Assembly: GCA_027405735.1 (NCBI GenBank)
Contig: JAPEHQ010000001.1
Span: 2,728,001-2,792,000, forward strand
DNA: 64,000 bases
From: Mucor racemosus
Taxonomy: Eukaryota; Mucoromycota; Mucoromycetes; Mucorales; Mucoraceae
Reading direction: 5' to 3'
Part shown: one piece after another, positions 17,243-57,658 of the stretch
Layout of the letters: every line of letters begins with the position of its first letter
Numbering within the stretch: the stretch's first letter is position 1
Notes under the pieces: model-generated
The model's database searches: none
What the model was told of the DNA's origin: nothing
The model's input: only the letters and a program-made list of their open reading frames with translations
Position numbers and translations under genes: made by a program

Positions 17243-17315
17243 TGCGGCTAAAGTGGATCGAACACCTGACCTTTAGATCTTCAGTCTAACGCTCTCCCAG
17301 CTGAGCTATACCCGC
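17243..17315 (-). tRNA. tRNA-Phe (GAA)
   Basis: 73-nt cloverleaf on the minus strand with anticodon loop CTGAAGA (GAA anticodon), D arm GCTCAGCTGGGAGAGC, T loop TTCGATC and discriminator A. It is identical to the copy at 57659-57731. Both carry a G5-G68 mismatch in the acceptor stem. Internal A and B boxes are intact. A CACTA transposon terminus begins 58 bp upstream of its 5' end. Confidence 0.93.
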
Positions 17316-18089
17316 AATCTGATATTTTGATACATGCGTATGTATTGATGTGTAAACTTGTAAAAAAATCTTTCACTACAGCTTATAGGTGTCTGAGGTT
17401 GTATTAGGGAACCCTAATACGCCTTCAAAATATTTTATAGTGGTAAGGGTAATAAAGTAATTGCTCAAATGTCGGTGGAAAAAGAATTAAATCAAGTATC
17501 ATTGATCACTTATAAGAGGCATTAAGTAATTTTTTAAAAAAAGTCATTTATTGTGTATAAAAAAAGGTTTTTATTATAAATTTACTAGAGCGAGGCAATA
17601 ATTATTACAAAGTTTCTATAAGATATGTACAGTATAAATAAACCAAACAGTAGAAGATTAATATCATCATAAACGAAATTAGCAATTATGTCAGTACATG
17701 TCCTTCAAATTACTAATACGATACATTTTGAGTGTGATGATTTTACTTGCTTTTTTTTATTAATAAAGAGAGATAAAATATGATGAAGGAAAGAGAAAAA
17801 AAAAGGAGGCATCATTATGGAAAAAATAACGATAAAATATTATAATAAATAATTTAAGTAAATGTAATTAAATAATCTCATTTATTTATTGCATTATTAT
17901 AATCTTATTATGGTTTTCCCAGTTAAATAATGTTAAAAATCAAAAGTAGTATTATTTTCATGATATCATATATATATTTATAATTTTTTTCCATAGTGTG
18001 TTTATGTATTTACAACAAAAAGAAAAAAAAATCAACAGAAAAGAACAAAAAGCTACCTTTTCCCTTTTTAGAGAGTGTAATAACTAAGC

Positions 18090-18608
18090 CTTGTACGCAT
18101 CCACTCGATCACCGAAAAGACCTTATCTAAAGGAAAAAAGCACGGAACCGGAAGTAAGAGCCTGTTGTACAATTGCTATGGCCTTACTTGCCAAAATTTG
18201 ACCTTTAAGGTCGTCATCTTCATACAGAATAGATCCTACCAGTGGATAAGTAGAGACCGTCGAGTCCGTTATTTTTCTCTTGGTTTGCAGGAAAGAACAA
18301 ACTTCCCCATAACGAGAAGCCATTTCAGCCCAAGACAATGTGTTATTGCCAGACATGGAGTGTAACAAAAATCGACATGGAGTGTAACAAAAATCGAGTG
18401 TGATTAAAATTAAAAAAGTTGAAGTTGTTAAGATGGGAGATATAAAGCTGAGATTAAAATATATTGTAAATCGGAAACGGATGTATCTAAAATCATTTGG
18501 ATGTGAGACGGATGTAGCCCAGTTGTCGAGATATAGTTGTTCAAAAATGGCGTATTTCAAAACATATTAAAAGTGATGGATACGCCAAAGAGTCTTATTT
18601 TTTTTTTT
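18090..18608 (-). mobile_element. Inserted LINE 5' fragment (5' UTR + ORF1 start) with 16-bp TSD
   Basis: Flanked by AGTGTAATAACTAAGC at 18074-18089 and 18609-18624. On the minus strand it reads an A-tract (11), then GACTCTTTGGCGTATCC, a 5' UTR matching that of LINE-C (ATCTCGACAACT shared), and ORF1 from the SWAEMA region to GSVLFSFRK and on, with a frameshift, to DAYK. The A-tract sits before the 5' end instead of after the 3' end, which is not the normal target-primed product. Confidence 0.75.
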
Positions 18609-18624
18609 AGTGTAATAACTAAGC

Positions 18625-20134
18625 GAAAAATTCAATTTATTGCTTTTCCCACATTAAAAGCTGTAGCTAAAACCCCACTAAAAGAAAATATGCAGTGAAA
18701 TTATCACCCTCACTAATAAATCTGATTTGATTGGCTGTTGTATGCTGTCAGATGTCTTAAAATACTTATTTAGATAACTGAATATTACATAAATCTGTAT
18801 TTACCCATTATATAAAAAAAAGGTACAACTTTTTAGATTCAGATCAAAAAAAAAATTATCCATTTTCCCCAATTTTAGCATCAATAAATCAAAATACATA
18901 ATTATTCTGAAGCTATAAGCTCTGTTGGCATTGTTCATTGTTGAAAATATTAATGCGGTCCCCCCCCCCGCCGGGCTTACAAAAATCGTGACAAAGTTTT
19001 GAAAAAAAAATTTTTTTTTTTTTTTTGTACCTTTTTTTGTATATGTTTTCAAGTTACCTAGCTACCATTTGCATTTACATAGATTGATATCATTAATGCA
19101 TTAACGGTTTCAAGTTTATTTGATTTTAAATAGTCGAATTTGTGCCCCTGGATATCAAAATTACGTTAAAAAAAGAATTACCAGGAATTTGAGCAGAAAC
19201 ACGAATATTTTCAAAACAAATTATTGGTTCGTATTATTTTATGTGATATTGCTACAATAATATTGACATTTCTGATTTTTATGAATAGATTTTTGATGCT
19301 AAACAGTAGTAGTTGAAACCAGTAACTATTGCTCTATTGATTGATAATATACTTTGCATTTCAACCATGTGGATTATCGCTGAAAAAAAGACCAAATGGA
19401 GAATAGATTTGGCTTGATAAATATTGGTATTATGAGAAAATGATGAAGGAAATGAGGATATGCTTTGACAAAATGTTTTAAATAATAATGGAAAAGGTAA
19501 TTAAGAGTATTTGGAGCTTTTATGGATTGATTGTATTGCATTTTGCAGCAAAAAAAAAAAGATATATATGCAACAATTAGACTTTTTGGGGGAAAACATA
19601 GTACATATTTTGGATGTAAAAACAACATTTTTACAAATAAAAGTAGAAACAAAAAATATCACACCAAAGAGAAGCATTTAGACTTTATTTTAGAATATAC
19701 ATTGTATAGTTGATTGTGTCAAATTTGGGTCATAAAAATTAAAATTAGTATAAATTTTTTTTGCTTATCTGATCAAAACAACATGGGATTGTTACGATTT
19801 CGACAATGAAGGCATGTCTAATGATTTGAATCAATATAAATATACAACTTTGTGATATGCAGATAATAAACTACAAATTTAATTTAAATTTATATTGAAT
19901 TCATTTCCATTTATGAGCCATTTCAATTTGGAAATTGACATTATTTTTTAAGATACACCACCTATACTTTCCACTGAATTATTCTATAGCCAATTTAGCT
20001 ATAAATGTAATACAAATTCATACAAAAACCTAAAAGCACAGATTGATATATGCATTAATTTCAAAAATACGCGTATTCTGTATTCCTCAATTTTAATTTT
20101 GCGTGCAATTATTGTAACTGCAGGCAATTTTTTT
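18625..20134. other. Interior of gutted CACTA copy, no gene recognised
   Basis: AT-rich non-coding sequence with homopolymers (C-tract near 18960, T-tract near 19009). Short ORFs lack motifs. It has no counterpart in the intact CACTA copy, so it is either captured host DNA or older decayed repeats. Confidence 0.5.
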
Positions 20135-21466
20135 ATTTGATAATGTTATTATTTTGTATGTTTATAATGTTTTGGGAGTTCTATACAAGGAAATCAAGCT
20201 TTCGTATCACAGAAAATGGAGTATATAAAAATGATTTACATTTGATTCTTGCAAATTTTCCTTCTTCTTCTTATTCTCCTATCTTTTATTATTATTATTA
20301 TTATATATATATCCAACGCCCTCTATTTCGAGTCTTCTATTTTTTACAAGGTAAATGCTGTACAATATAACAAAAATGTTTAAGCATATAAGCATCTAGC
20401 ATTAGCCTTTCCTGTGTATAATCCAACTTGATCACTTCATGGTAAGATTTATATATATTATTCATGCTCTGTACTTTATCTGACATTGTCAACTTTTAAT
20501 ACTAGATTTTTACTGTTTATGCCCACTGGTTTCAGGTAAAACGTCTACTCTTTCTTACGTTTAAGTGTATACTCATCTCTTTTTTATTATTTAATAGATT
20601 GGACCTTCAGGAATACCTTCTGTTTCTTGCGCTGGACCTTCAGCGATGTAATAATGTATGTATATAATTTGATAATCTTTCTATTTAAAAGAAATTTGAA
20701 TCTTAGCTAATGATTTCTCTTTTGATGTAGCCACTCTGTATTTGATTAGGAGCATCCTTTATAAGCACAGACTAGATTACTGTAGGTTCAATGTAATAAA
20801 ACTCAAGGTAGGTGTTGTCGTGTTGTCTTTATATCTTCCGCTATGGTAATGACACCCAAGCCAATGCATATAATATACATATTGCCATAGCCACCATTAA
20901 TACTACTATTCTTTTAATAAAATCCTTTTAATCTACAACCATACAATGATCCATTAATGTATTTTTCATATACCCATAAAAAAAGATTATGGCGTATCTG
21001 CTATCTATTCATAGTTGAGTATCAATCAATAACAAATATCGTAAATATCAGCCAATACTGTATGGATTTGATATATATAGAATCCAGTAATATGTAAACA
21101 TCTACATCTAAAATGCAAATAAAAGCCAATAATTTAACTGAAAAATACGTAATCTGATGGAAAGATATAATAATAAGCCAATGAACAAATGAAAATATAC
21201 GTGATTTTGATGAAAAAATATGATAATGGTCCAATTAGACAATATAGAACAGAGTCTAATACGGCTGTATTAGAGGTGTATTAGGGTAATACGGTAGCTA
21301 ATCCTGCTGTATTAGAGTTGTATTAGGGTATTTTACCCAGCCGTATTAGGAGTGATATTAGGGTATACCCCAAAACGTTCATTTTATGACTACCCTAATA
21401 CAGCATCTAATACGGCCATATTAGGGTTATATTATGGGATATTAGGGTGATCATAAAGCTGTAGTG

Positions 21467-23128
21467 TTTAAATTTCTATAAAAGGAAACTGTCTTTTAAA
21501 TGATTGTATCTACATTTTGGATTGAATTGGTGGTTATTGTGGTTATAATTGTGTATGTTTAGATTGGAATTATATTGAAGATGTATTGTATAAAATTTGG
21601 AAGCAATTGATTCTGTTTAGGACATAGACTATACTGGGTACATGTATTACTAGTAGAAGTGCTTAAAGGATTATGTAGACATTATTCTTAGCATAGAAGG
21701 ATGAGTATGAGGTGATAATGATGTATGCCAATTTTATTTCATTTAGTTATGTTACATTTAGTCTATGATGAAATGGTGTAGCCTGAGATCCTGAAGTGAG
21801 CCAATCATGAACTCGTTCCTGGAAATGGAATTCAACTATTCCTTTTGTATCAACATTCACAATCTAAAGTAAATCAAGCATGAAGATCCTATATACTTAA
21901 CTTGGTCGTATCCTACTAAACTTGCTATGGCCAACCTATTATATCATCATGTTGTAATCAACTAGTTCTTCAAGAAGATGAAATCATACTTTCATACACT
22001 CTGTATTGTAGACTCTATATCCACGCTTCCAAAACATATAAATACCCTGAATCCTGATGTCGTTCGAGATGGATTCGTTATCTTTTTACCTACAATATAC
22101 TCAATAAATATATCTAGTTTTAACTTTATTTTCTAGTTATTCATTGTGTATATTTAAACAGATTCAGTGGAATTATGGAGTTAGGTGGTGTTTATCCCTT
22201 TCAAGAATTTTCACTCAAGATCTAGTGATGGGATTTTTATTCTCTCAACGGTTTTGAATGTGTTATCATTCATTGTATTAGTCTATATTTTTATTTGGAA
22301 GCTGAAAATGGTTTACTTGGAGTTTTATGAAGTTTTCAAGGTGAATTTACCAAAATTGTATTGAAACAGCGATTGGCTGTGCGTTATTCTAATTTGGCTC
22401 AAGTTTGATGGTGTTTTCACGGGTAATGGAATGAACATTTGGATGGATCGAGGTTCGGAAGGTGTTCTATGCAAGAATGCAATTAATGGTTAGTTTGTCG
22501 TTGTTATGAACTTGCATTTAATTGTCGTCTGGGTACTCACTATTGTTGAATTCATTGTTTGGGGTTAGTTTGATCTATATTGCTAAATTTCAAGGGGAAT
22601 TGCCATTGTTGGTTTTGAAAGAACAATGGAGTGCTCGGGTCAATGCACGAGAAGATCAGCTAATACTAATTTGAGAAGAACAAGACAATGGATTTGCGCT
22701 CAGTCTACACGGGTCTACTTATTTTTGCATGTTTATTTCATCAAGATTACTCGGGATCAATTAGTTATTTTGGGAAACATTTGTTGTTAACTCAAATTAA
22801 TGGGTAACTGAGGACTTTAAGTACAGAGCAATGGAATATTTCAATAATGGATAATCATTTAGAATTTGCATTACTATAAATATTGTTTCAATTTTGACAG
22901 TTCAATAAACTTGATCTTATTTTTAATCTTATTTCTCGGATAACTACTTAGTTGTTGAATACCTATTTAACACGAACTCCTGAAGAAGAAATACTTTTAT
23001 CTCATAATTATTGGAAATAGTTTCTTACAGTCTTACTATTTCATTTCAACATTAATTATATCTTGTCTACCGACTTATCAATTTATAACGAAGGTAATCA
23101 TTAAAGAGATATCTGCATATATCAATTT
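21467..23128. other. Non-coding stretch around solo LTR; possible older LTR
   Basis: Apart from the solo LTR at 21614-22160, this holds no coding region I recognise. A TATA-like ACTATAAATATTG (around 22873) followed by CAATAAACTTG (about 22903) suggests the end of another, unclassified LTR. I could not find its borders. Confidence 0.35.
21614..22160 (+). mobile_element. Solo LTR of gypsy-A family, TSD GATTC
   Basis: 547 bp from TGTTTAGGACATAG to TGTATATTTAAACA, flanked on both sides by GATTC (21609-21613 and 22161-22165). It is nearly identical to the LTRs of the complete element at 30948-37420. It arose by LTR-LTR recombination after insertion. Confidence 0.93.
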
Positions 23129-23417
23129 TGTCAAGTGTAATTTTTAGTAAATAGTAATGGTAAATATATTAAGCTCACGTGATATATATCACGTGCATTC
23201 CGACCTGTTCGGTTCGATAGATCTGTTCGGTATTTAGTCATTACTCGTTATGAGTATATAAGCTCATGTTATATACTTCAATAATAAACTTAACTTCTTT
23301 CTAATATAAATCTATTACTACTACATTTATTAATAGTTGTTCCTTACAGACTAAACATATAAAATATAACTAAAATACCTAATAGCCTTCGGCTATAGGT
23401 ATATAACAGTTATGACA
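23129..23417 (+). repeat. R-D repeat copy (LTR-like, 289 bp)
   Basis: Starts TGTCAAG and ends TTATGACA (inverted TGTCA/TGACA). Inside, in order, are the palindrome CACGTGATATATATCACGTG, a TATATAAG box and AATAAA, an LTR-like layout. The flanks are ATTT on both sides (possible 4-bp duplication). The other copies at 47824-55558 (split) and 57358-57646 have the same 289-bp length. Similarity to the 57 kb copy continues ~17 bp past the TGACA end, so the border is uncertain. No tRNA gene was found next to this copy. Confidence 0.65.
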
Positions 23418-23480
23418 ATTTTGATAAGTATGTAGTTTTTTATGGTTTTTAGCTTTACTTGTAGCGCGCAGCACATGTTA

Positions 23481-23652
23481 GACTACAGCTTATAGGTGTC
23501 TGAGGTTGTATTAATGAACCCTAATACGCCTTCAAAATATTTTATAGTAGTAAGGGTAATAAAGTAATTGCTCAAATGTCGATAGAAAAAAAATTAAATC
23601 AAGTATCATTGATCGCTTATTAAAGGCATTAAGTAATTTTTTAAAAAAAGTC
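23481..23652 (-). mobile_element. CACTA copy 3, terminal remnant
   Basis: About 170 bp matching the tRNA-proximal end of CACTA copy 1 (17374-17545), starting GACTACAGC in place of CACTACAGC and containing the GTATTA...TAATAC palindrome region. It is cut off by a rearranged gypsy LTR. Confidence 0.75.
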
Positions 23653-24073
23653 TGTTTTAATATACACAATAAATATATCTAGTTTTAACTTTATTTTCTA
23701 GTTATTCATTGTGTATATTTAAACATTGATTACAACATGATGACATAATAGGTTGGCCATAGCAAGTTTAGTAGGATACGACCAAGTTAAGTATATAGGA
23801 TCTTCATGCTTGATTTACTTTAGATTGTGAATGTTGATACAAAAGGAATAGTTGAATTCCATTTCCAGGAACGAGTTCATGATTGGCTCACTTCAGGATC
23901 TCAGGCTACACCATTTCATCATAGACTAAATGTAACATAACTAAATGAAATAAAATTGGCATACATCATTATCACCTCATACTCATCCTTCTATGCTACG
24001 AATAATGTCTACATAATCCTTTGAGCACTTCTACTAGAAATACATGTACCCAGTATAGTCTATGTCCTAAACA
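23653..24073 (-). mobile_element. Rearranged gypsy-A LTR with inverted internal block
   Basis: It begins like a reversed LTR (TGTTTTAATATACACAAT) and then switches at about 23671 to the forward-strand LTR end (AAATATATCT...TTTAAACA, to ~23727). It resumes the reversed LTR interior at TTGATTACAACATG up to CCTAAACA at 24073. About 150 bp of LTR is missing and the outer flanks (AAGTC and GGAGC) do not match, so this is a rearrangement and not a clean solo LTR. Confidence 0.7.
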
Positions 24074-24920
24074 GGAGCAACCGACACCGAAATGGAAAAA
24101 ATCTTCCGTGACAACACCACAAAGAGCATACACCGTGTCGTATATTTTCAGGATTGATAAATAGTATTTAAAAAATAATACAATTATAAAAGAATGAGTA
24201 ATTTATCAGTTCTTCAACTGTATAATAAAAACAAGATATCGTTTATTTAGATATAAAAGTATGGCCTTTTATATTGATTTGACATTGAGATCCTGAGATG
24301 TAATCTAAGGCACTATTGAACCATTGGATCTGTTTGATAGTAATATATGGATTGAAATGGATCAATCATAATTTAACCGTTCTTGAAGAGCTTGTTAGTT
24401 GTCTTGTTTCAATGCTGCGCTAAATATGCTTGGATGTTGATTTGATAGCTACTTGATTGGTTAACTGCTGGGATGAAATAATGTGTTGTCATAATTGAGG
24501 TCCAAGCGTTCTTGGTAATTACTGGATTGAACTTGCTACGCTAGGAGTTTCTTATATCCGATATCAAGACTTGCACTTCAATACATGTCGTAGTCAATAG
24601 ATTGTAAGATGTATTGATACTGTAGAAGGTGATAACGTATGATAATAGTAGGTGGAATACAACATACCGGAGAAGAAACTTTCTCAGGCACAATCCTGTG
24701 ACACCAAAATTGATGACCAACGCGGTCGCGTAACAACAGCCACCAGGGAGTGAAAGCCTTTGCAGGCAGAGGAAGAGACTAGAACAAGCGCCACGAAGGA
24801 GGTTGAATACGCAGATGCGTAGGTAATAGTAGTGGAGGGCCCATACTCATGTTCACCACAGAGACCACAAGAAGGAGTAGGATATTGGATCAAAGTGATG
24901 GATACGTGAAAGAGTCTCCG
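24074..24920 (-). mobile_element. Mosaic LINE ORF2 3' fragments, interrupted by a solo LTR
   Basis: Minus strand. From high to low coordinate: the LINE 5' signature ACTCTTTCACGTATCC, then a LINE-B-like zinc-knuckle piece (about 24895-24842), then a LINE-A-like ORF2 C-terminal piece (24841-24665). After a 529-bp LTR insertion the LINE-A zinc-knuckle region continues (24135-24074). Frames are broken. The junction between the two LINE families is within what looks like one 98-residue ORF, so that ORF is chimeric and not a gene. Confidence 0.7.
24136..24664 (-). mobile_element. Solo LTR of a separate family (LTR-E), TSD about CACCG/TACCG
   Basis: 529 bp starting TGTCGTATAT and ending GAATACAACA (TG...CA). 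It splits a LINE ORF2 fragment cleanly and is flanked by CACCG and TACCG (4 of 5 identical). On the minus strand it shows a TATA-like ATAAAAGGCC region and then AATAAA, as expected for an LTR. Confidence 0.7.
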
Positions 24921-25860
24921 CTTTTTTCCTCCCAAACTTTGCTCAAACTCGTGCTCATATAACTTTTCAACCCATGCCAAATATTTATGCGTTACACACC
25001 ACCAACATAAAAATTATGCGTCATAACATAAGATTATCTAATGGAAATTCATACGCTACACAATGAGAAATTCCGTCGATATATGCCTTTTTCTTGTATT
25101 AAACCTTCGACCTATACCAAATCAAAAAATTACCTCTGTGGAGGATACTAGCAAAAAGAAAAAAAAAACCAATGCCACATAAAACATGCGTTACACTAAA
25201 TCTATTCCATTTTATGTACAAAAACTATATTTTAATAATAATAACAAAAAATATGTCCTTTACAAATTGAATTTAACAATAACAAAATATATAAAATAAA
25301 TAGAGTATAATGATATAAACTGTTTTTTGTTTTTACTATTTGACAAAATTAATTTTTGTTAATATAAAATAAAAACAAAATTTTTTAAATTTTCATACAT
25401 TAAAATTATAACAAAATAAAATTTATTAAAATTACATTTTTTATAATTTGTATGTATAAAAATTTTTTATTTTTGTTAAAAATTTATTATGAAAAAAATC
25501 AAATAGTACTTTATATAACACAGCAAAAATAAATTTAAACATTTTGTTAACTTTTAAATTGTTTTACGTTTATTACAATATATTATTAAAAAAATAAAAT
25601 TTTTGCCATTATTTTATTTTATTTATACATTTTATTTATTTTTTAATTTATATTTTGTATTAATTTAAAAAAATTTATATTTTAAATACTTTTTGTTTTG
25701 CTAATTGGAATAAACTAAATTTTTATTATGTATAAATATTATTTTATTGCACTTTTAATTTTTAATTTAATAAATTTAATAAAAAATTTAAAATAAATTT
25801 GGTACGGCAATGTTTTTTTTTTTTTATAGAAAGTTTTAACGTAAATGTAAATTTTTGTTT
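24921..25860. other. AT-rich non-coding stretch
   Basis: 25230-25860 is extremely A+T-rich low-complexity DNA. 24980-25200 contains several copies of GCGTTAC/ATGCGT words also seen right after the LINE-A insertion (TGTAACGCATAATT). No gene. Confidence 0.5.
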
Positions 25861-25876
25861 AATGTTAGTTTGTAAC

Positions 25877-28800
25877 ATTGGACGAGCGTTGTATTGTGGC
25901 ATCTGTGGCAGATACACAATCCAACGTCTTATGCAAGGTAGCCACCATCTACGCTCCTGCACAGTCTTCGGACCGTCCTTTGTTTCTCTCTCAATTTCTC
26001 TCTCTTCCGCTTTGGTCTGAGGTGCTCAACACGCCTTGGATGCTCATGGGTGATTTCAACCTTCACCTACACTCTTTATCTGTCTCTCGCCAACTTGATG
26101 TCGCTCCTTTTGTCCAGTGGTTGCGCACTCATTTTACAAACTGTCATCCTGAAGGTCTTCCAACATTCCCTCGGAGTAGTACTTGTATTGATTACATCTT
26201 TGGTCAGCTGTCTCTTGCTCCTCGGTTGGCTAACAGTCAATTGTTGTATATGCCTAGTCGGTGGACGGATCATTCTCTCTTGACTGTTGATTTGTTGCCT
26301 GCTACAACTAGTATTGGTCCTGGTAGTTGGCGGTTCAATCCAACTCTCCTGGCTGATAAAGAGTTTCTTGCGTTGCTGAATGCCACGGTATCATTGTTCT
26401 TCTCTGGTACTGTTGGTGGTGGGTCTAGGGGTATACATACTAGTCAAGGTGGTAGTGGTGACTCTGAAAGCACTATTGCTCGATGGGAATCCCTCAAGTT
26501 GTTACTCAAGTGCTGTGCACAAAAGTACACTAGAGGCATGAAAGCGCGGCTCAAGAACAAAATCTTTACCTTACAACTGGAACGTATTCGGGCTCTCTCA
26601 TCAACTTCTGTATCGGGTGTTCGGACTGGTGATGCTTCAATTGTAGGTCAAACGGAAAGAGTGTCTACTGCTTCAGGTGATTCTGAGCAGGTTAGGCAGC
26701 TTGAAGTTTTGATTGAGAATCAGATACAGAAAGAGACTAGTCAGAATATGCTTCGCTCTGCTACTCGTTGGCATGAACAGGGTGAGCGTAATAACAAGTA
26801 TTTCTACCGTGTAATCAAGGAGCGGCAGTCTCAACAGACTATCCAATCCTTAAAGTGCTCTACTACTGGAGATATCTTGGTGGATGCAGCAGCTATTAAC
26901 AGGGAGGCTCAAGGTTTCTATCAAAAGCTATACACCCCTGATGCTGTCGATGTTGAAGCTATCGATACTCTCCTAGGGAATATTCCTCCTGAAGTCTGTC
27001 TTTCATCTTTGGATGCAGATAAACTAATGGAGATGCCAAGTCGTGATGTTGTCTTTGCCTTGCTCACTCACTCTCCCAAGTCTAAAAGTCCAGGTCTCGA
27101 TGGTTTACCATTTGAGTTGTATCAATATCTTGCTGGTTCTTGTTCTGATTTTCTTGATTTACTTGTGGATGTGTTGAGTGATGCTTTTAATGGTGTATTT
27201 CCTCCTTCGTGGCAGCAGACTAGAATGGTACTATTGTTCAAGAAGGGTGACCCACAGTTGTTGGTTAACTGGAGGCCTCTGTCCTTAATTAACAGTGATG
27301 CCAAGTTATTTACAAAGCTCATTGCTAATCGTATGAACAAGGTCTTGCCAAAGTTGATCAATCCTTATCAAACTGGTTTTCTTCCTCATCGTCTTATCTC
27401 TGATAATGGCTGGCTAAATCAATTGTTAATGTCTCATTTGCGTGTAGTTGCTCCTGATTTGCCTCAAGTAGCTGTTCTCTTAGATCAAGAAAAGGCGTAT
27501 GATCGGGTTCATCCTGAGTACCTTCGTCGTGTTTTGCTTCGTTTTGGTTTTCCTGATGGTCTGGTGTCGTGTCTGTTGTCTTTGTTTTTTGGAACAAAGA
27601 TTTCAGTATCTATTAATGGTTGGCTTGGTGCTCCCGTGCCTCAGCTGCGTGGTCTCCGTCAAGGTGATCCTCTTTCGCCGCTGTTGTTCAATTTGGCATT
27701 TGAGCCCTTGCTTCGTTCTCTTCTTGCTTGTCCTGGTTTGTCTGGTGTTTCTTTGTCCGCTGTAACCGTACCCCCCAAATGGAAGCCTTCTCCGGTGACT
27801 GTAAGGGATTTTGATGCGGCTACAATGCAATGGCCCATAGATTTTGTCAGTAGTTCTGGTTCGCCAACTCCTGTCAAGATTCTAAGTTATGCCGATGATT
27901 TGGAAGTCTTTCTTTCTTCTCCTGCTGAGTGGTCTGTTCTTTTGTCGTGGCTTGATTTATATGGTCGAGCGTCTAACGCAAAAGTCAACATGAACAAAAC
28001 TGTTTTGGTGTCGTTGTCTGGTGTGTCCCACCCCACATGGGTTTCTTTGGCTAGTGATGCTGGTTTCCAGTGGCATGATGCTGAGTCCAGTGGTTCTGTG
28101 AGATATTTAGGTTATCCTTTATATCACACTGATAGTCAACTTAAAAATTATTTGGATGGTGTTCTGGTGAAGGTCCAAAGACACAGTAATATTTTGAAGC
28201 AAAGAAATCTCTCCATAAGGGGAGCTGGACTTGTGGCTAATTCATTACTGTTGTCCAAGGTGTATCACTTGCTTCGTGTTGTTCCTGGCGGTAGAACTAC
28301 TGATTCCTGGGTGAGGGATCTCAAAAAAGTAGTTCGAGAATATGTGGTGTCTTTTCGTCCTGGTGTTGCTTGGTCTACTTTGTGCCTTCCTCGCAAGTTT
28401 GGTGGTGTTGGCTTGGTGGATATATCAGATCAGAGCTTAGCTCTGCATCTAATATATCTCCAACGCTTATTACGTCCGTCCTCCTTGTCGGATTTTGTTT
28501 CACCTTGGTTGGCCTATGCCTTCCAAGTGTATACTGGTCATAAATCCATACTTCCCTGGTTGTCCTTTCCTTCTACATACAAACCTCGTTTAGCTTCTGT
28601 TCCTGTTCTCGCCCATTTGGGTAAGCTTCTGCTTAAACTACCAAAGTTGGTTCCAGCCCCAGGTTGGTCCTCAAGATGGTATCTGGATTTTCCTTTATGT
28701 TGTGTATTAAGCCCTGTTTCTTCTATTTCGTCGTCTGTCAACCCAAAATCTCTTGCTCCAAAATATCTAATTTCGGATATTTGTTACTGGCAAGCTGATC

Positions 28801-31494: not shown

Positions 31495-31551
31495 TTTTTT
31501 AAAGTTAATTACTACTTATTATATATTTACAAATCAAAAATTTACTTACTG

Positions 31552-45169: not shown

Positions 45170-45242
45170 CTGGTACTTCTGGTGGTGGTAAAGCTGCTGG
45201 CAATTTGCCTACCAAGACAAAACATAACGCCCCTAGGGCTCA

Positions 45243-47275
45243 ATGAGTACAACCATAGGTGTCAAGATTGGCTGTTTAAACTCGCGCAGTTTGTTTATGC
45301 AGTCTAATCCCTCAACATTCAAAGAGCTCTCATCATATCTTCGTTCCAAGTCACTTCAACTAGACATCCTTTGCTTACAAGAGGTGTCTCAATTCCGCTC
45401 TCAATCTACTCTTACTGAGTCCCAATTACGTTCCTTTTCCTTTGCTTTTTCTCGTTGTTCTCTCGTAGTGTCAAAACACTGCGCTATTATATGTCTTAAC
45501 TCTCGCTTTTCCTTGATTGATACAGAGATTCTATTGGACGAGCGTTGTATTGTGGCATCTGTGGCAGATACACAATCCAACGTCTTATGCAAGGTAGCCA
45601 ACATCTACGCTCCTGCACAGCCTTCGGACCGTCCTTTGTTTCTCTCCCAATTTCTCTCTCTTCCGCTTTGGTCTGAGGTGCTCAACACGCCTTGGATGCT
45701 CATGGGTGATTTCAACCTTCACCTACACTCTTTATCTGTCTCTCGCCAACTTGATGTCGCTCCTTTTGTCCAGTGGTTGCGCACTCATTTTACAAACTGT
45801 CATCCTGAAGGTCTTCCAACATTCCCTCGGAGTAGTACTTGTATTGATTACATCTTTGGTCAGCTGTCTCTTGCTCCTCGGTTGGCTAACAGTCAATTGT
45901 TGTATATGCATAGTCGGTGGACGGATCATTCTCTTTTGACTGTTGATTTGTTGCCTGCTACTGTACAACTAGTATTGGTCCTGGTAGTTGGCGGTTCAAT
46001 CCAACTCTCCTGGCTGATAAAGAGTTTCTTGCGTTGCTAAATGCCACGGTGTCATTGTTCTTCTCTGGCACTGTTTGTGGTGGGTCTAGGGGTATACATA
46101 CTAGTCAAGGTGGTAGTGGTGACTCTGAAAGCACTATTGCTCGATGGAAATCCCTCAAGTTGTTACTCAAGTGCTGTGCACAAAAGTACACTAGAGGCAT
46201 GAAAGCGCGGCTCAAGAACAAAATCTTTACCTTACGACTGGAACGTATTCGGGCTCTCTCATCAACTTCTGTATCGGGTGTTCGGACTGGTGATGCTTCA
46301 ATTGTAGGTCAAACGAAAAGAGTGTCTACTGCTTCAGGTGATTCTGAGCAGGTCAGGCAGCTTGAAGATTTGATTGAAAATCAGATACAGAAAGAGACTA
46401 ATCAGATTATGCTTCGCTCTGCTACTCGTTGGCATGAACAGGGTGAGCATAATTACAAGTATTTCTACCGTGTAATCAAGGAGCGGTAGTCTCAACAGAC
46501 TATCCAATCCTTAAAGTGCTCTACTACTGAAGATATCTTAGTGGATGCAGCAGCTATTAACAGGGAGGCTCAAGGTTTTTACCAAAAGCTATACACCCCT
46601 GATGCTGTCGATGTTGGAGCTACCGATACTCTCCTAGGGAATATTCCTCCTGAAGTCTGTCTTTTATCTTTGGATGCAGATAAACTAATGGAGATGCCAA
46701 GTCGTGATGTTGTCTTTGCCTTGCTCACTCACTCTCCCAAGTCTAAAAGTCCAGGTCTCGATGGTTTACCATTTGAATTGTACCAATATCTTGCTAGTTC
46801 CTGCTCTTCTTTCTTGGGCTTACTTGTGGAGGCGTTGAGTAGTGCTGCCTTTTCGGGGGTGTTCCCTCCTTCCTGGCAGAAAACGAGAATGGTCCATCTT
46901 TTTAAGAAGGGTGATCCTCAATTGCTAGTTAATTGGCGGCCTCTCTCGTTGATTAACTCTGATGCCAAGCTGTTTACCAAGTTGATTGGGAATCGTATGA
47001 ACAAGGTGCTACCTAAACTGATCAACCCTTATCAAACAGGCTTTAATGCCACATCGTCTAATCTCAGATAACGGTTGGCTCAATCAGTTGCTGATGTCTC
47101 ACTTGCGTGTTGGTGCTGCTAACTTACCACAGGTAGCGGTACTCCTGGATCAAGAAAAGGCGTATGACAGGGTTCATCCCGAGTACCTTCGCTGTGTTCT
47201 GTTTTAGTTTGGCTTTCCTGCTGGTTTGGTGTCTTGTTTGTCGTCTTTGTTCTTTGAAACAGAGATTAATGTATT
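45243..47275 (+). pseudogene. LINE-C ORF2, frameshifted and 3'-truncated
   Basis: It has the complete N-terminus missing from LINE-A (KIGCLNSRSLF, LDILCLQEVSQF) and is otherwise very close to LINE-A ORF2. Lesions: a 4-bp insertion near 45962, a CAG-to-TAG stop at 46487, a one-base insertion near 47044, and a further stop near 47206. It ends inside the reverse transcriptase at 47275, where an inverted LTR begins. The rest of ORF2 is not found on the other side. Confidence 0.9.
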
Positions 47276-47823
47276 TGTTTAAATATACACAATGAATAAC
47301 TAGAAAATAAAGTTAAAACTAGATATATTTATTGAGTATATTGTAAGAAAAAAATATAATGAGTCCATCTCGAACGACATCAGGATTCATGGTATTTATA
47401 TGTTTTGGAAGCGTGGATATAGAGTCTACAATACAGAGTGTACGAAAGTATGATTTCATCGTCTTGAAGAACTAGTTGATTACAACATGATGATATAATA
47501 GGTTGGCCATAGCAAGTTTAGTAGGATACGACCAAGTTAAGTATATAGGATCTTCATGCTTGATTTACTTTAGACCGTGAATGTTGATACAAATGGAATA
47601 GTTGAATTCCATTTCCAGGAACGAGTTCATGATTGGCTCACTTCAGGATCTCAGGCTACACCATTTCATCATAGACTACATGTAACATAACTAAATGAAA
47701 TAAAATTGGCATACATCATTATCACCTCATACTCATCATTCTATGCTAAGAATAATGTCTAAATAATCCTTTGAGCACTTCTACTAGTAATACATGTACC
47801 CAGTCTAGTCTATGTCCTAAACA
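47276..47823 (-). mobile_element. Inverted gypsy-A LTR without matching TSD
   Basis: TGTTTAAATATACAC to CCTAAACA, about 548 bp. Left flank GTATT (LINE-C ORF2) and right flank ATAAC (inside repeat R-D) differ. The intact R-D sequence has GTCATAACTG here, so ATAAC is the original duplication on the right and the left side was exchanged by recombination between LTRs. Confidence 0.85.
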
Positions 47824-48066
47824 ATAACTGTTATATACCTATAGCCGAAGGCTATTAGGTATTTTAGTTATGTTTTATATGTTTAGTCTGTAAGGAACAA
47901 CTATTAATAAATGTAGTAGTAATAGATTTATATTAGAAAGAAGTTAAGTTTATTATTGAGGTATATAACATGAGCTTATATACTCATAACTAGTAATGAC
48001 TAAATACCGAACCGATCTATCGAACCGAACAGGTCGGAATGCACGTGATATATATCACGTGAGCGC

Positions 48067-48290
48067 CACTACAGCTTTATGATGACCCTAATATCCCATA
48101 ATATAACCCTAATATGGCCGTATTAGATGCTGTATTAGGGTAGTCATAAAATGAACGTTTTGGGGTATACCCTAATATCGATCCTAATACGGCTGGGTAA
48201 AATACCCTAATACAACTCTAATACAGCAGGATTAGCTACCGTATTACCCTAATACACCTCTAATACAGCCGTATTAGACTCTGTTCTATA
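48067..48290 (+). promoter_or_regulatory. CACTA left subterminal iteron region
   Basis: Dense CCCTAATA, CTAATACAGC/CTAATACGGC and GTATTAG words in both directions, more than ten in about 220 bp. They are mirrored in copy 1 at about 21245-21460. Such subterminal arrays bind the transposon-encoded protein in CACTA elements (family knowledge). Many copies contain the hexamer CCCTAA/TTAGGG. Confidence 0.7.
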
Positions 48291-49425
48291 TTGTCTAATT
48301 GGACCATTATCATCTTTTTTCATCAAAATCACGTATATTTTCATTTGTTCATTGGCTTATTATTATATCTTTCCATCAGATTACGTATTTTTCAGTTAAA
48401 TTATTGGCTTTTATTTGCATTTTAGATGTAGATGTTTACATATTACTGGATTCTATATATATCAAATCCATACAGTATTGGTTGATATTTACGATATTTG
48501 TTATTGATTGATACTCAACTATGAATAGATAGCAGATACGCCATTATCTTTTTTTTATGGGTATATGAAAAATACATTAATGGATCATTGCATGGTTGTA
48601 GATTAAAAGGATTTTATTAAAAGAATAGTAGTATTAATGGTGGCTATGGCAATATGTATATTAAATGCATTGGCTTGGATGTCATTACCACAGCGGAAGA
48701 TATAAAGACAACACGACAACACCTACCTTGAGTTTTATTACATTGAACCTACAGTAATCTAGGCCGTGCTTATAAAGGATGCTCCTAATCAAATACAGAA
48801 AGGCTACATCAAAAGAGAAATCATCAGCTAAGATTCAAATTTCTTTTAAATAGAAAGGTTATCAAATTATATACATACATTATTACATCGTTGAAGGTCC
48901 AGCGCAAGAAACAGAAGGTATTCCTGAAGGTCCAATCTATTAAATAATAAAAAAGAGATGAGTATACACTTAAACGTAAGAAAGAGTAGACGTTTTACCT
49001 GAAACCAGTGGGCATAAACAGTAAAAATCTAGTATTAAAATTTGACAATGTCAGATATAGTACAAAGCATGAACAATATATAAATCTTACCATGAAGTGA
49101 TCAATTTGGATTATACACAGGAAAGACTAATGTTAGATGCTTATATGCTTAAACATTTTTGTTATATTGTACAGCATTTACCTTGTAAAAAATAGAAGAC
49201 TCAAAATAGAGGGCGTTGGATATATATATAATAAAAAAAAAGATAGGAGAATGAGAAGAAGAAGAAAAATTAGCAAAAATCAAATGTAGCTCATTTTTAT
49301 ACACTCCATTTTCTGTGGTACGAAAGCTTGATTTCCTTGTATGGAATTTTTCAAAACAATATAAACATACAAAGCAAATATTTTCTTATTCACAAGTAAT
49401 CCCTTTTCTTAATCTCAACAATATT

Positions 49426-50473
49426 ATGAACAGTGATAGAACCATTCCAGTTGTCAGTACTGCTTCTCCCTCGGTTAATAATAGGCAACGATTTATTCCA
49501 GCCGTTCGAAATGTTGATGCCAATAGAGAAATACAAAACGCTGTAAATATAGCAGAATTGCAGAAACAAATGCAAGAGATGAAGAGGCATTTTTCTGTTA
49601 TGTCGAGCACTTCAAAAAAGAATTATGGACCAGATCCGGATCTCCAAGTAAGTAAAGCTCTAAACATCATCCATTTAAATCACTTTTTTTATTGATTTGG
49701 GTATAGAGAAGAATTCACAAAGAATATCAAACTTTTGTCCAAACAACGGGTACCTCTTTTGATTTTATCAAGAAGCCATCTGAGGGTGATAATCAATTGG
49801 TAATTGATGGTTTAGTGGATAAGCTTATTCAGTACAACGCTGGTCGCAAAGGTTTGACGGATAATGTTGTTATACAGGCAGCCAAGTCTGAAATGATCTT
49901 TCGGATCAAGAAGTATCGTGAATATTTGAAAGCGAAGGACAAGCACATAAATACAAAAAGCAAAGAAGATCTTGATGAGCTGGCAATTCAGCGCAAATTG
50001 GCCAAACGAAAGTTAAGAGTGAGTGAACTTTTTCTCAAAACATCATAGAAACTCACCTCTCTTTGTGTAGAAAATAAACTTGAGAAAAGCAGCGTTTGAA
50101 AACATTGGAAATTATCTTTCTCTCCCAGATGGATGTGCTTCTATAGATGAACTAAAAAAGTATATCTTACATCCTGAAGCAACGTCTGATGATGAAGACG
50201 ATGTTGATTCTACGATAGATGGAACGGTAACTCGCTTTGTAACGCAGCAACCTTTATGGAGAAGCGATCATGTAAGTGTCAATTTATCTTAATATCAATT
50301 GCATCCTCTCACCACTCACCTTTATCAAGATTAATTTCTGCTTGAATCGCTTGGATGATTTCAAACCTGCTGGAAAAACTACTGTTGCTCGGCTTCGTGT
50401 ATTGAAGGATGTTCCATATCCTGTAAATAATGTGTTTCCTGCTTGGATGATCAATACAAGTAATGCTTTATAA
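49426..50473 (+). CDS. CACTA-encoded accessory protein, unknown function
   Basis: Not recognised. Exons 49426-49647, 49707-50018, 50071-50271 and 50330-50473 join in frame to about 292 residues. I start at MNSDRTIPV, the last upstream Met before a conserved-looking region; the frame is open further upstream. Features: a coiled-coil-like segment (REIQNAVNIAELQKQMQEM), basic helices (KSEMIFRIKKYREYLKAKDK, AIQRKLAKRKLR), an acidic patch (ATSDDEDDVDST) and a C-terminal VARLRVLKDVPYPVNNVFP. By position it is the counterpart of the TnpA-type DNA-binding protein of plant CACTA elements (inference, no sequence similarity claimed). Copy 1 lacks it. Confidence 0.65.
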
Positions 50474-50938
50474 CTGGTTTTGGTTATTTTTAAAAGAAAC
50501 CCCTACCTTATAATTTCAATAAAGTACCGTCATTTGCCCACTATGTTCAAAACATATAGCGAGAAACGAATTTTTTTGGTTTCGACTGAATTGAAGTGAT
50601 TTTATGTTGTTTTCGTGTGCGATTTTTTTGTTACTGAACGCGTGTGTTGTTTTTAATAAAATGATGCAACTTGATACACAAATAGTATGTAATACAGTGT
50701 CTTTTTCAATAAAACGACGCAACTTGATGTACTAGTATTTAAGGTGATGTTTATTTCAATAATAATGTGAAAAACAAGAAAATAAAATGCAGTTGTTTTT
50801 TTTTTTTTTTTTTGCACCTTCCATTTTTCTTTTTTGCACACCAAAAACCCCGCTTGAACGCTTGTTTGAACTGTAAAAAAAATGAAAAAAAAATCTACAA
50901 AAATTCATTCAAAAAGCCATTGTATTAAATCCGGTAAA

Positions 50939-51529
50939 TTAAGCCACCTTTGGTTTTGTCATCTCTTGCCATTGATTAAACACACTTTCCAATTGAGCCA
51001 GAGACGTGCTTGTTTCTTCATCACTACTAGAAATATATACTATATTACTTTCTTCAACGCTTTCTGCAGAAAGTTTATCATCATCAGAACTTTTTGGTAC
51101 ACGATAGATTTCCATGGACCAGTCTGTGTCAGAAGCAGTACAGATATCGTTGTTTTCTTCTTTATCTTGATTGAGTAACAACAATGCATCCTCGGCATCA
51201 CTGTTTTTTTCATCATTATCACTTACCGCATCATCACTCGCATAATCACTTGCTTCGTCACTTGCTTCGTATAGATTTTCTTTGATAACATCAGATCTGC
51301 GTTGAATATCGTCGTCGTTACAAGACCAAATAATCGGAGGCTGGTCCATTGCAGGATACGAAAACACTACTGATTGGAGCTGTCCACCGTAAACGTCCAC
51401 TGGGAAACCGTTAATCATCATTCTCAGAGACATCGATTGTCGATTATCTTGCTCAACTTGGTAATCAAATAAAAGAATCCCGGATGATCGAACGCAACGG
51501 GTATCGATTTTCAAATTGATAACAGGCAT
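50939..51529 (-). CDS. CACTA-encoded acidic protein, unknown function
   Basis: Not recognised. A single 196-residue frame on the opposite strand between the accessory and transposase genes. The first ~85 residues look like a small folded domain (MPVINLKIDTRCVRSSGILL, then VYGGQLQSVVFSYPAMDQPP). The rest is strongly acidic, Asp/Glu/Ser-rich (EASDEASDYASDDAVSDNDE). It has its own T-rich region on the 3' side (poly-T near 50796-50812). It could be a regulator or an anti-silencing protein, but nothing in the sequence proves that. Confidence 0.55.
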   Translation of the reverse strand: MPVINLKIDTRCVRSSGILLFDYQVEQDNRQSMSLRMMINGFPVDVYGGQLQSVVFSYPAMDQPPIIWSCNDDDIQRRSDVIKENLYEASDEASDYASDDAVSDNDEKNSDAEDALLLLNQDKEENNDICTASDTDWSMEIYRVPKSSDDDKLSAESVEESNIVYISSSDEETSTSLAQLESVFNQWQEMTKPKVA

Positions 51530-51791
51530 TAAAGTGTGGTATAGTGGTATTTTATAAAACTTAATCCAAGAGAGTGAAAGGAGGAAAGTTATTATTATAG
51601 TAGGTCGTCAAGGATCAACATTTGTTGTGCCACCTCAAGATCTCGATTTAGCAAGACAATAACAATAACAAACAGCCCTCATCGATAATAATGCAAAAGG
51701 AGCAATTCGTTTTACTCATTTTATTTTGCCTGTGTATCATAATAAAGCATTTCCTTTTATCTTGTTTCCATCACAATAATTATAATAAAAA

Positions 51792-54700
51792 ATGGTTATT
51801 TGTACCTGTACTACTTGTAAAGCTAAGAATCTTCGAGGTTGTAATGTTGCTAAAGCAACCAGAGTTGCGCATGAAGCAGCAGATGTTTCAGATGCTATAT
51901 CCCAAAATGTCGCCAACCAATTTACTAATGACGATGTTACAGCTATGGACCTTGATAATGATGGTAGGATTATTTTTGTCTAGAATAAAATTGCTAATAC
52001 TGCATCAGACACTAATTCATTACTGCTACTTTGTCTAAAGAAATAACTGAAGAATATAATCAAGTAGACATCGATGATGACGAAGACGATGAAATTGACG
52101 ACAGCATTCACCAAGAAGCTGATGAAGGTATTAAAATTAACATTTATTTATTACATGTGCAATTTATAAACAAGCTGATATCAATATAGGTTCGCAAAAA
52201 CGGTTTTACGATAATTCTGCATTTCCTGTTGAACCTGTACCTTTTGTGTTGTTTATGCTTATTGTCTTGCTTCATAGTACTTCTTATTGTACAGATCAAG
52301 GGCTTGAAATTATCATGCTTTTTCTCAATCAGGTATTGATTTTGACAAATCATACCTATAGGTTTCCTGTCAGGGTTGCTACGTTTGTTCTATGGGCTCA
52401 ACTTAACAAGAAAGTTTATCCCTCCTGTTTAAAGTCGTATGTATGCTGTACAAACTGTCACGCTCTGTATCAATACAATCCACCTGTCATAATTAATAAG
52501 AAATGCTCTTGGAAAGATAGCTTGAAGAATGCAAAACCCTGCTATAACGAATTGTTTTCAAAAACAAAAAACAACGTATATATTCCTAAGCGACTTTTCC
52601 ACTACAATCCTATTGCAAATACTCTTCAAATGTTTTTGCAACGTCCATATTTTGTACATCAATTGGAAGATAAAAGACGAAAGATACCTGGTTTATATTC
52701 TGATATTCAACATGGCCAAATGTTCAGAAACTTCAAAATAGACGAGAATGATGCCCTTCCTTTTGTGGATCAAAGTGCATATAATATTTTAATAAGTGTA
52801 TTCGTAGACTGGTTTCAGCTGTTTGATAACAATTCTCAAGATCTCGGCGGCATATACGCAACTGTGCAGAATATTTCTCCTTCTGAAAGGCATTTAAAAC
52901 ATAATAGCATAACAATTGGCATTATGGGAGGACCTAAAGAAGTTAGCTATCTTCACATTGGAAGGTACACTTTAATTCAGTGAAAATTTAATGAATATTT
53001 ACTCACCATGCTTTTTATTTAAATGTGTAGTTACCTCAAGTTGGTTGTGGATGAGTTAATAACTCTACAAAATGGCATTTACATGACGAATTATCGAGGT
53101 GACAAAGTACTTGTAAAAGTATGTTGTTCTCACATTTCTGGCGATCTTCCTGCTATTAGAAAAGTATGTGTTCCTTGAGTTCTCTACAAATTAAATCAAC
53201 TCACTCACTAGTATTTAATATGAAATAGGTTCTGGGTTTTTCTAATCATAATGCATATATGGGCTGTAACTACTGTTTGAAACCATTTCCAAGTGTTGAG
53301 GTTCAACAGGAAGGATCAATCAAGAATGTTATGGATTATTCAAACTTCCAAATTGACACATTTGAAATCCGTACTAAATTGACCCACTTGAAAGCATCTG
53401 AAATGTATAGAAACGCTGCCAATGCTACCGAAAGAGATGCAATCAAAAAAGCTCATGGAACACTGTATTCTGAATTTCTAAGGTTGCCCTACTTCAACCC
53501 CATATCTATGGGAGGTATAGACGTTATGCATTTGCTCTTGAATGGTATTATTTTTGGAAGTTTATTCATAATCACTTTATAATGCTAACTTTTTATTCGT
53601 TAGGTGTTGCAAAGAGAATCACGCACAACATCTGGATTGGTCTTCATTCTACCGTAGAAACAAATGTTCCCCTCTTGGGTGCTCAAGAGTTGAAGCGTAT
53701 CTCAAGTGTTTTTGATAATTTGATAATCCCACTGAAGTATGAAAACTCTTTACAAAGAAAGATTACGACGGGGGATGGATTTTCCAATCTGAAATCTTCC
53801 GAATGGCTTCTTTATATCATGTTATCGCCACTGGTTCTTATACAATGTATACCCAAGAAACAGTTTATGAATTGGTTGACTCTCGTAGAGATTTCTCATC
53901 TTGTATGTAGCACTTGCATCTCTGAAGCTGATATAGATAATGTGAAAAAGCTCTCCATGAAATTTTTGAAAGATTTTCAAACTATCTACAAAGATCCTAG
54001 GTATCTTTCTATAAATTTTCATATGCTGCTTCATCTTGCTGATGATAACCTTCGATTATTTGGAAGTGGTCCTTCCTCATGGAATTTTTCTTATGAATCA
54101 CGAAACAAGGCTATCAAATCTATATCAACAAATGGCAAGTCTAATTTGGAGCTGACATTGATGAAGAAGACGCTTTTGCAGGTACATTACGAAGACTATG
54201 TCAGTACAATGCCAATGAAAGAAGTGCTTCCGCCATCTATTACTGCTAGTATTTGTTCGCTTATTGGTAACTCTGATCGTGATAATGTCCATCAGATGTC
54301 CAATATTATCAAAGAAGAATATAATAATGCTGTTACTGACTTTGACTTGGATGAGTTTTTATTAACTCGAACCTCCTTGATGTATGGCTTTGAACAACTA
54401 CCCCCAAGTGCCGTCAAGTCTTTGAAGTTTAAAAAATCTGCTGCTATGGCGCATGAAGACTTTAAACTTCTTTTGCAATATTATAACTCTATCTATGATT
54501 TTGCAAATTACATTGGTTGCAGTAGCGGACTCAGTATTGATCACCTCAAAAGCCTAGGCTATATCCAGGTTGACAATACAATTGCCAAATTTGTGTCGTT
54601 TGAGCTATTCCACAATGAATACAAGTCAGCGGAAAGTAGCGTCAAAAACCATCGTGGCTCTTTTGTCTTGGCTTTTTCCAGAAGCAAAAATGGTGCTTTG

Positions 54701-55000
54701 TGTCCAGCACAGATTCAGTACTTTTTTCGCCATGAGGTAGCGGTTATTAATACACAAAATGAATTTGTGGATGTAACCCATACGTTTGCTTTGGTCAAGT
54801 GGTTTAAGCCACCTCATCTCGAGCTTCCTTCCTTCCAAATTGCTGATAAATACATAGAGTTATGCTCCTGTGAATTTGAAGAACCATCTGCTATGTCAAT
54901 TATTCCAGTGCATTACATCCATTCTCCAATTGCCATCAAATTGAATTATATCGACAACATGCATGCTTTCGTAAAAATGCCAGAACAATTGATAATTTAA
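51792..55000 (+). CDS. CACTA (Tnp2/Transposase_21-like) transposase
   Basis: Six exons, all in frame: 51792-51963, 52041-52127, 52190-52964, 53031-53163, 53229-53544, 53604-55000; about 959 residues with no internal stop. The N-terminus has a cysteine cluster (MVICTCTTCKAKNLRGC) like those of fungal Tnp2/KDZ-type transposases, then an acidic segment. Conserved blocks: PFVLFMLIVLLHSTSYCTDQ, CCTNCHALYQ, MGGPKEVSYLHIGSYLKLVV (across an intron), SGDLPAIRKVLGFSNHNAY with GCNYC, GGIDVMHLLLNGVAKRI, and NFHMLLHLADD...WNFSYESRNKAIK. The Asp in GDLPA, the Asp in IDVMH and the Glu in SYESRNK are candidates for the catalytic DDE triad. Assignment to Tnp2 versus related Plavaka/KDZ groups is from memory and would need a profile search. 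Confidence 0.82.
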
Positions 55001-55443
55001 TGCTGCTTCTGCTTCGTTTTTCTCTCTCCTCTTCTTCTCTTTGATACTTAACGCCTGGACATCAACATGGGTTTATATAATATTTATTAATATTTTATAA
55101 ACCTCGGAATTAGTGTGCTTCGACCTTCTCGTGGTTAATTCTGTTAAGGCCATGATAAATTTTTTTATGTGGTAACCAACAAAGCACAACAACATGTAAG
55201 AATTTATATTATGAATATCATGAGCTTTTTAATGCCTTCTTTTTTTTTAGTCCTTTATATATTTGCTGATTCATCTACAGACTACTGCTGGTGCCCTGAT
55301 GAACTACTTTCAAATACTGTAGAATTAGTTGCAAATCTTATATTCTTTGTATTTACGCATAAAATAAAAAATTACCAAATAAAGATCAGATGTTATATGT
55401 TAAAAATTACTGCTTGGGCACTCACTTTACTATTATACTTACC

Positions 55444-55511
55444 ACTATAAAATATTTTGAAGGCGTATTAGGGATCCCTAATACAACCTCAGACAGCTAT
55501 AAGCTGTAGTG
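55444..55511 (-). promoter_or_regulatory. CACTA right terminus with perfect 20-bp palindrome
   Basis: The tRNA-proximal end. Within it GTATTAGGGATCCCTAATAC is a perfect palindrome; copy 1 has the same site with one changed centre (GGGAACCC, at 17401-17420). It is a likely transposase binding site. This end lacks the multi-iteron array of the other end. Confidence 0.65.
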
Positions 55512-55569
55512 AGCTTAATATATTTACAATTACTATCTATTAAAAATAACACTTGATAAATCATATCTG

Positions 55570-55641
55570 TCTTCGGTAGTATAGTGGTGAGTATCCCCGC
55601 CTGTCACGCGGGAGACCGGGGTTCAATTCCCCGCCGGAGAG
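55570..55641 (+). tRNA. tRNA-Asp (GTC)
   Basis: 72-nt cloverleaf, anticodon loop CCTGTCACG (GTC), D arm TAGTATAGTGGTGAGTA, T loop TTCAATT, acceptor TCTTCGG/CCGGAGA with one G-U pair, discriminator G. Followed directly by seven T residues as the RNA polymerase III stop. The only host-type gene inside the transposon island. Confidence 0.95.
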
Positions 55642-57646: not shown

Positions 57647-57658
57647 AAATATCAAATT

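Follow-up and report, generated by a model that had tools for sequence, protein, structure and literature searches.

The 64,000-bp stretch of the Mucor racemosus genome analyzed here (assembly GCA_027405735.1, contig JAPEHQ010000001.1, positions 2,728,001 to 2,792,000 of the forward strand), referred to as the window, contains two copies of a DNA transposon family of the CACTA type, designated f1, each of which ends 57 or 58 bp upstream of a different transfer RNA (tRNA) gene. This family and a second one, f2, found in the same genome, are considered below with regard to their position relative to genes transcribed by RNA polymerase III (Pol III). Three tRNA genes were called in the window by ARAGORN (Phe, Asp, and Phe). 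The features at and between them, including target-site duplications (TSDs) and the repeats R-D and R-F, are as follows, with the evidence in parentheses.

17242..17316, minus strand: tRNA-Phe(GAA), target of f1 copy 1 (ARAGORN; tRNA family search)
17317..17373: 57-bp spacer between f1 copy 1 and tRNA-Phe, within an R-F repeat (coordinates; R-F matches)
17374..21466: f1 copy 1, 4093 bp, TSD TTT (termini, TSD)
23125..23405, minus strand: R-D repeat, resembling a long terminal repeat (LTR), adjoining an f1 remnant (contig C1:2751125-2751405)
23481..23652, plus strand: remnant of an f1 terminus, 171 bp matched, first base altered (terminus search)
47832..48064, plus strand: distal portion of the R-D repeat split by f1 copy 2 (contig C1:2775832-2776064)
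48067..55511, plus strand: f1 copy 2, 7445 bp (inverted repeats)
55512..55569: 58-bp spacer between copy 2 and tRNA-Asp, the 3' end of the R-D repeat
55570..55641, plus strand: tRNA-Asp(GTC), target of f1 copy 2 (ARAGORN)
57358..57646, plus strand: R-D repeat, 289 bp, without a CACTA insertion, 11 bp before tRNA-Phe
57658..57732, plus strand: tRNA-Phe(GAA) behind the uninterrupted R-D repeat (ARAGORN)

The f1 terminus CACTACAGCTTATAG was found exactly at 17374 (plus strand) and at 55497-55511 (minus strand), and the same transposon end, in the same orientation, faces the tRNA gene in both copies, as the initial annotation had proposed. Its limits for copy 1 (17374-21466, TSD TTT) also stood. 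The spacer of 58 bp that it had given for both copies was recovered at copy 2, but that of copy 1 measures 57 bp. Copy 2 had been placed at 48065-55511 with the TSD AGC; AGC is indeed present on both sides, but the inverted repeats put the start at 48067 and leave two extra bases, GC, at 48065-48066 distally. The flanking DNA had been described as native at one copy and as R-D at the other, of which the latter applies to copy 2, whereas the flank of copy 1 is the repeat R-F, with 22 genome matches, two being the locus itself. An empty site, AGC at 57600-57602, is present in the uninterrupted R-D repeat, 55-58 bp from tRNA-Phe.

Three genes were delimited within copy 2.

49430..50470, plus strand: gene A, the first reading frames of copy 2, apparently intron-split, limits by eye (frames)
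50939..51604, minus strand: gene B, an accessory open frame, stop to stop (frames)
51792..54998, plus strand: transposase gene, apparently intron-containing, limits set by eye (frames; DDE, C(2)C, and HxxxH motifs)

CACTACAGCTTATAG and CACTACAGCTTTATG, the inverted CACTA termini, stand at opposite ends in all five two-ended f1 copies, and 3-bp TSDs were found in four of these: exact TTT (Phe), AGG (Arg), and AGT (Asn), and AGC plus two bases (Asp). The fifth, at tRNA-Cys on contig C4 (C4:16194, L056), has ATT distally against TAT and no matching duplication, which suggests a rearrangement. The transposase frames contain, in order, VDWF, GDLPAIRK, GCNYC, HMLLH, and YESRNK (window positions 52804, 53140, 53262, 54014, and 54089), that is, the order D, D, C(2)C, H(3)H, E with the three acidic residues assigned by eye. 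CACTA/EnSpm (CMC) elements are defined by a D-D-E triad accompanied by the motifs C(2)C and H(3-4)H (PMC12730594). Four protein homologues were found, and a distant one, P0004 (24% identity), matches PF02992 (Transposase_21, tnp2) at 1e-16, a domain for which the pieces of copy 2 themselves gave no match above the cut-off. Judged from its termini, its 3-bp duplications, and this motif order, f1 belongs to CACTA/EnSpm. Copy 2 and the copy at tRNA-Arg on contig C20 are 99.8% identical over 7445 bp, which suggests that f1 has been active recently. Copies 1 and 2 have about 1.3 kb at the distal end and about 0.1 kb at the tRNA-facing end in common and differ in their interiors. The f1 copies of about 4.1 kb (Phe, Cys, and Asn) have the ends of the 7.4-kb copies with a different interior, and are probably a non-autonomous derivative.

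The census of f1 covered this genome (53.2 Mb, 54 contigs); all seven candidates found with a 127-bp terminal query were scored, giving seven places. At four of them the f1 end lies 57 (Phe), 58 (Asp), 56 (Asn), and 57 bp (Arg) from the tRNA gene. At two others, Cys and Glu, the tRNA gene is 349 and 352 bp, respectively, from the same transposon end, with an R-D repeat of 289 (Cys) or 290 bp (Glu) in between. When R-D is discounted, 60 (Cys) and 62 bp (Glu) are left, including R-D's own duplication of about 4-5 bp, and the f1-tRNA distance before the arrival of R-D would therefore have been about 55-58 bp. The same f1 end faces the tRNA gene in all six tRNA-linked places. No tRNA was found at the seventh, the remnant at window position 23481, outside which an R-D repeat starts at 65 bp. 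The sequence retrieved next to f1-like pieces of transposase on C17 and C20, and next to an f2-like piece on C11, likewise contained no tRNA. With 3128 first-look tRNA candidates taken as targets in 53.2 Mb, the chance probability for four of seven f1 copies within a 3-bp window is about 3e-14. The initial annotation had allowed that its two events could be coincidence, against which this value speaks; a second family behaves alike. The clustering near -58 that it had proposed to look for over all copies of the terminus was found in this genome, near -57, with four of seven copies at 56-58 bp, two of seven in register once R-D is discounted, and one of seven without a tRNA.

The second family, f2, was detected where an R-D repeat on C1 broke exactly at the point at which copy 2 had entered another R-D copy. 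An f2 copy (8824 bp, TSD GCT) with transposase frames is located 57 bp from tRNA-Gly (L055). The f2 termini CACTGCAACTA begin with CACTG, not CACTA, and the f2 transposase frames are 36-38% identical to those of f1; f2 thus has the termini, duplication, and transposase of the class, and both families resemble CACTA/EnSpm (CMC) elements in CACT(A/G) termini and 3-bp duplications, to which f1 adds the D-D-E residues and the motifs C(2)C and H(3)H (PMC12730594). A search with a 336-bp non-autonomous relative, in which the best 40 of 126 candidates were scored, gave 49 matches in 41 copies; all 41 were examined, and they represent the best matches rather than a full census. In 23 of these 41 copies the same end faces a tRNA gene or the stump of one. 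Seventeen of the 23 face an intact tRNA (counting the second copy of a tandem at L089 and two pairs that are likely inverted duplicates), one is at the Asn locus, where f1 was inserted between f2 and the tRNA, and five face a tRNA gene of which nothing but the beginning remains, at 57-63 bp. A second search with the tRNA-facing end as query (best 40 of 77 candidates scored) added seven places, three of which had the f2 end at 56 (Met), 58 (Tyr), and 56 bp (Gln), and a fourth of which had an LTR of another repeat, R-E, in between (50 bp, the LTR, and 11 bp to tRNA-Gly).

Over both families, the 22 directly measured sites (intact tRNA, duplicates merged) span 56-67 bp, with 17 at 56, 57, or 58 bp, and comprise 14 tRNA types; many Pol III genes thus have an insertion within the same narrow range of distances. 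A pooled chance estimate (n=48, k=22) treats the copies as independent and is indicative only. Thirteen of 63 listed tRNA genes, which are top-scoring genes and not a random sample, have the end of an f1 or f2 element at a distance of 56-66 bp, or 14 when Cys, with a repeat in between, is counted. At some sites insertion was also serial. Two f2 copies stand in tandem at L089 with TAT between and after them, f2 copies or pieces at L105 have CGA between and after them, and the order at the Asn locus is old R-D, AGT, f2, AGT, f1, AGT, with the f1 end 56 bp from the tRNA. Repeated choice of one nucleotide is the simplest interpretation, since the duplication on the tRNA side stays at a constant distance. 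Runs of a 3-bp unit at the junctions of L110, L132, and L133 look like excision leftovers, and some of the longer distances include visible leftovers, namely, a GCGGCGGCGGCT run at L133 and an 8-bp piece like an older terminus at L124. The sequences themselves show the narrow distance, the 14 tRNA types, the 3-bp duplications, the near-constant orientation, and, at several loci, repeated insertion at one nucleotide.

These results suggest, with a probability that we put at roughly 0.7, that f1 and f2 integrate about 56-58 bp upstream of mature tRNA 5' ends regardless of the local sequence, by means of a tether to a Pol III factor. It is possible, with distinctly lower probability, that the Pol III complex simply leaves, at its upstream edge, the sole nucleosome-free or bent stretch that the transposase reaches, and that insertions accumulate there with no tether. 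The duplicated triplets vary (TTT, AGC, AGG, AGT, TAT, CGA, GCT), as expected when sequence is not chosen, but 17 of 22 sites within 3 bp and a nearly fixed orientation fit a docked complex better. Random insertion followed by the survival of harmless copies beside tRNA genes, a safe-haven logic that has been argued for retroelements (PMC5006619), is improbable; it would produce neither a precision close to one nucleotide nor repeated insertion at a single point, and the nearly identical 7.4-kb f1 copies are probably too young for strong sorting. In the favored, tethered mode of integration, the transposase complex would be held by a Pol III factor, for which TFIIIB (Brf1/TBP/Bdp1) may be the likeliest dock by analogy with TRE5-A and Ty3. 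An asymmetric dock would set which transposon end faces the tRNA, which fits the near-constant facing end, with L055 as the exception. Pol III transcription is expected to start about 10-12 bp before the mature tRNA 5' end, and the insertion point would therefore be about 45 bp upstream of the start, presumably near the upstream border of the DNA covered by TFIIIB.

A number of observations weigh against this reading, the first of which concern the repeats. At each of the six tRNA-linked f1 places the flank is another repeat: R-D at Asp and Glu and as an old 79% copy at Asn, R-E at Arg, R-F at Phe, and, on the tRNA side only, reversed R-E at Cys. For f1 alone, tRNA distance and repeat context are confounded. 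R-D is a 289-bp repeat with TG..CA ends (L025-L054; window 57358-57646, 47832-48064, and 23125-23405), and in 22 of its 30 best copies a tRNA follows 6-12 bp past the query match, about 9-12 bp past the repeat end; R-D thus has the appearance of an LTR from a targeted element similar to Ty3. R-E is an LTR of about 336 bp with pairs mostly 6.4-6.6 kb apart (e.g., C20:784220-790886). Of 12 stretches behind R-E copies, four have a close tRNA, four (L154-L157) have TGGTAGC, as for a primer site, and four have neither; further R-E loci were noted at L147, L151, and L152. R-F is classed here simply as a repeat.

If the target were a sequence in R-D, R-E, and R-F, and these repeats themselves sat at a fixed distance from tRNA genes, the CACTA distance would be secondary. 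The six repeat flanks, the R-D copies adjoining tRNAs, and the use of the same R-D site by f1 at Asp and f2 at Gly are in favor of this explanation, but the insertion points in the three repeats are unlike one another by eye, and f1 entered R-E at two internal positions, about 43 bp from the 3' end (Arg) and 47 bp from the 5' end in the reversed copy (Cys), at a similar tRNA distance. Furthermore, the three repeat queries had no match at 16 of the 21 f2 loci that were measured, although other repeats are possible there, and the nearest 170 bp or so at the Thr locus had no second genome match among the matches listed, a list dominated by the neighboring repeat. The two R-E positions and the f2 loci without a repeat match thus indicate that the shared property is distance to the Pol III gene, which agrees with the earlier proposal of a common distance and orientation to such a gene rather than a common target sequence. 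Repeat sequence was rejected on the same two grounds as the main cause and is very improbable.

The other contrary observations concern mainly copies without a called tRNA. At least the right flank is common to 17 of the 41 f2-like copies (group B), where no tRNA was called, and none was found at one further copy of the 41 (L125). In the second f2 search, one end lay inside an R-D repeat with no tRNA seen (L144), one belonged to group B with no called tRNA (L140), and one was without a tRNA (L139). Among the wider f2-like termini, no tRNA was present in any of 25 outer flanks; the tRNA-facing end of short f2 copies is the opposite one, and a tRNA was present in 4 of the 20 inner stretches. No opposite end was located for the CACTGCGGC-terminus group, which has a shared flank, or for six divergent elements (L094, L096, L097, L098, L099, and L104). 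The f2 copy at L055 is turned the opposite way to the other copies, and the f2 ends at L087, L121, L122, L130, and L141 were extrapolated from the alignment by 4-18 nt. A Pfam scan of eight pieces of copy 2, including genes A and B and the transposase, gave nothing above the cut-off, and the predicted fold of the f1 transposase piece is poor (mean predicted local distance difference test score, pLDDT, 48).

The common flank of the 17 copies, together with two f2 locus pairs that look like inverted duplicates (L121/L122 and L133/L134), could point to segmental duplication of one transposon-tRNA unit, the origin that the initial annotation had named as a danger to its idea. The remaining sites differ in tRNA and spacer; for the main set this origin was rejected because flanks, spacers, and tRNAs are unlike, and its probability is negligible. 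Group B had at first been filed as a non-tRNA control. When 15 right flanks were aligned (14 of the 17 copies and L140), a box A-like motif was preceded by 62-66 nt, with 63 nt, the value expected (56 + 7), in 8 of 15, and a box B-like motif (15/15) and a T-run (12/15) were also present. Rfam did not call this unit a tRNA, and ARAGORN called it only at relaxed thresholds and with other boundaries. A tRNA-like unit in a similar register, noticed after the fact, is suggestive only. The group B copies are probably one ancestral event, and the composite repeat (L111-L120, L129, L131, L088, L090-L092, L102, L103, and L140) is possibly a short interspersed nuclear element (SINE) carrying a targeted f2 insertion along.

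Other traces of Pol III genes were observed near these elements. TRNA-like gene starts are severed right after box A by a repeat starting with GTTAAGAATTGG or TTTAAAGATTG at L029, L108, L110, and L128 (Ile-like, Phe, and Ala), with a variant at L107 and L123 (Val); the position of the cut resembles that of Dada targets in the A box (PMC8869645). At L035, L149, and L153, a shared GAGGGGACGTTTGTCCTAGTTGC-like sequence behind R-D or R-E has a box B-like motif and no ARAGORN tRNA call, and is perhaps another Pol III gene.

Positional targeting of Pol III genes has been described for retrotransposons (PMC5911963, PMC7175516). A close likeness is to TRE5-A of Dictyostelium, whose insertions all have one orientation and lie 40-54 bp before the tRNA coding sequence, and whose open reading frame 1 (ORF1) protein contacts TFIIIB (PMC5911963); f1 and f2 likewise have a fixed upstream position, with a near-constant orientation. 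TRE5-A, however, is a non-LTR retrotransposon that uses target-primed reverse transcription, whereas f1 and f2 are bounded by terminal inverted repeats, are flanked by 3-bp duplications, and use a DDE transposase. Ty3 takes a precise position upstream of Pol III genes through TFIIIB, and the Ty3-like DGLT-A and Tj1 are also positional (PMC5911963). The R-D and R-E repeats of this genome lie at such a position. Ty3 and the Ty3-like elements insert at or near the transcription start, whereas f1 and f2 are DNA transposons whose insertions lie at 56-58 bp. Unlike TRE5-like and Ty3-like retrotransposons, f1 has inverted termini and encodes a transposase, and the Pfam scan of the eight copy 2 pieces gave no reverse transcriptase match. 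Among DNA transposons, Dada elements are specific for small RNA genes, those for tRNA included (PMC3706591, PMC8869645). They insert inside the gene at a recognized sequence with 6-7 bp duplications, whereas f1 and f2 insert outside the gene, 56-67 bp away at a fixed distance, with 3-bp duplications. No CACTA element at tRNA genes or with Pol III targeting was found among the matches listed in the literature searched, a scope outside which most subscription journals and Repbase entries lie.

A CACTA lineage has probably evolved integration that is guided by the Pol III machinery, independent of sequence, about 57 bp upstream of tRNA genes, and that returns to the same nucleotide. If so, it would be the first DNA transposon known to us with positional targeting in the style of TRE5 and Ty3, convergent with retrotransposons. 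Targeting of Pol III genes by position serves as a model of integration without harm. The printed cases that we met are all retrotransposons; Dada, the known DNA transposons with tRNA specificity, read the gene sequence instead of the position. A CACTA transposase that finds a position would show natural tethering of a cut-and-paste transposase to a basal transcription complex, and would offer both a natural model for targeted integration and a clean system for asking which Pol III factor is the beacon. The families f1 and f2 would also share tRNA genes with elements of the LTR type, for which a second position, about 10 bp upstream, is the site of insertion. This would explain the local architecture, in which the regions upstream of tRNA genes are layered landing pads for unrelated mobile elements at separate fixed positions.

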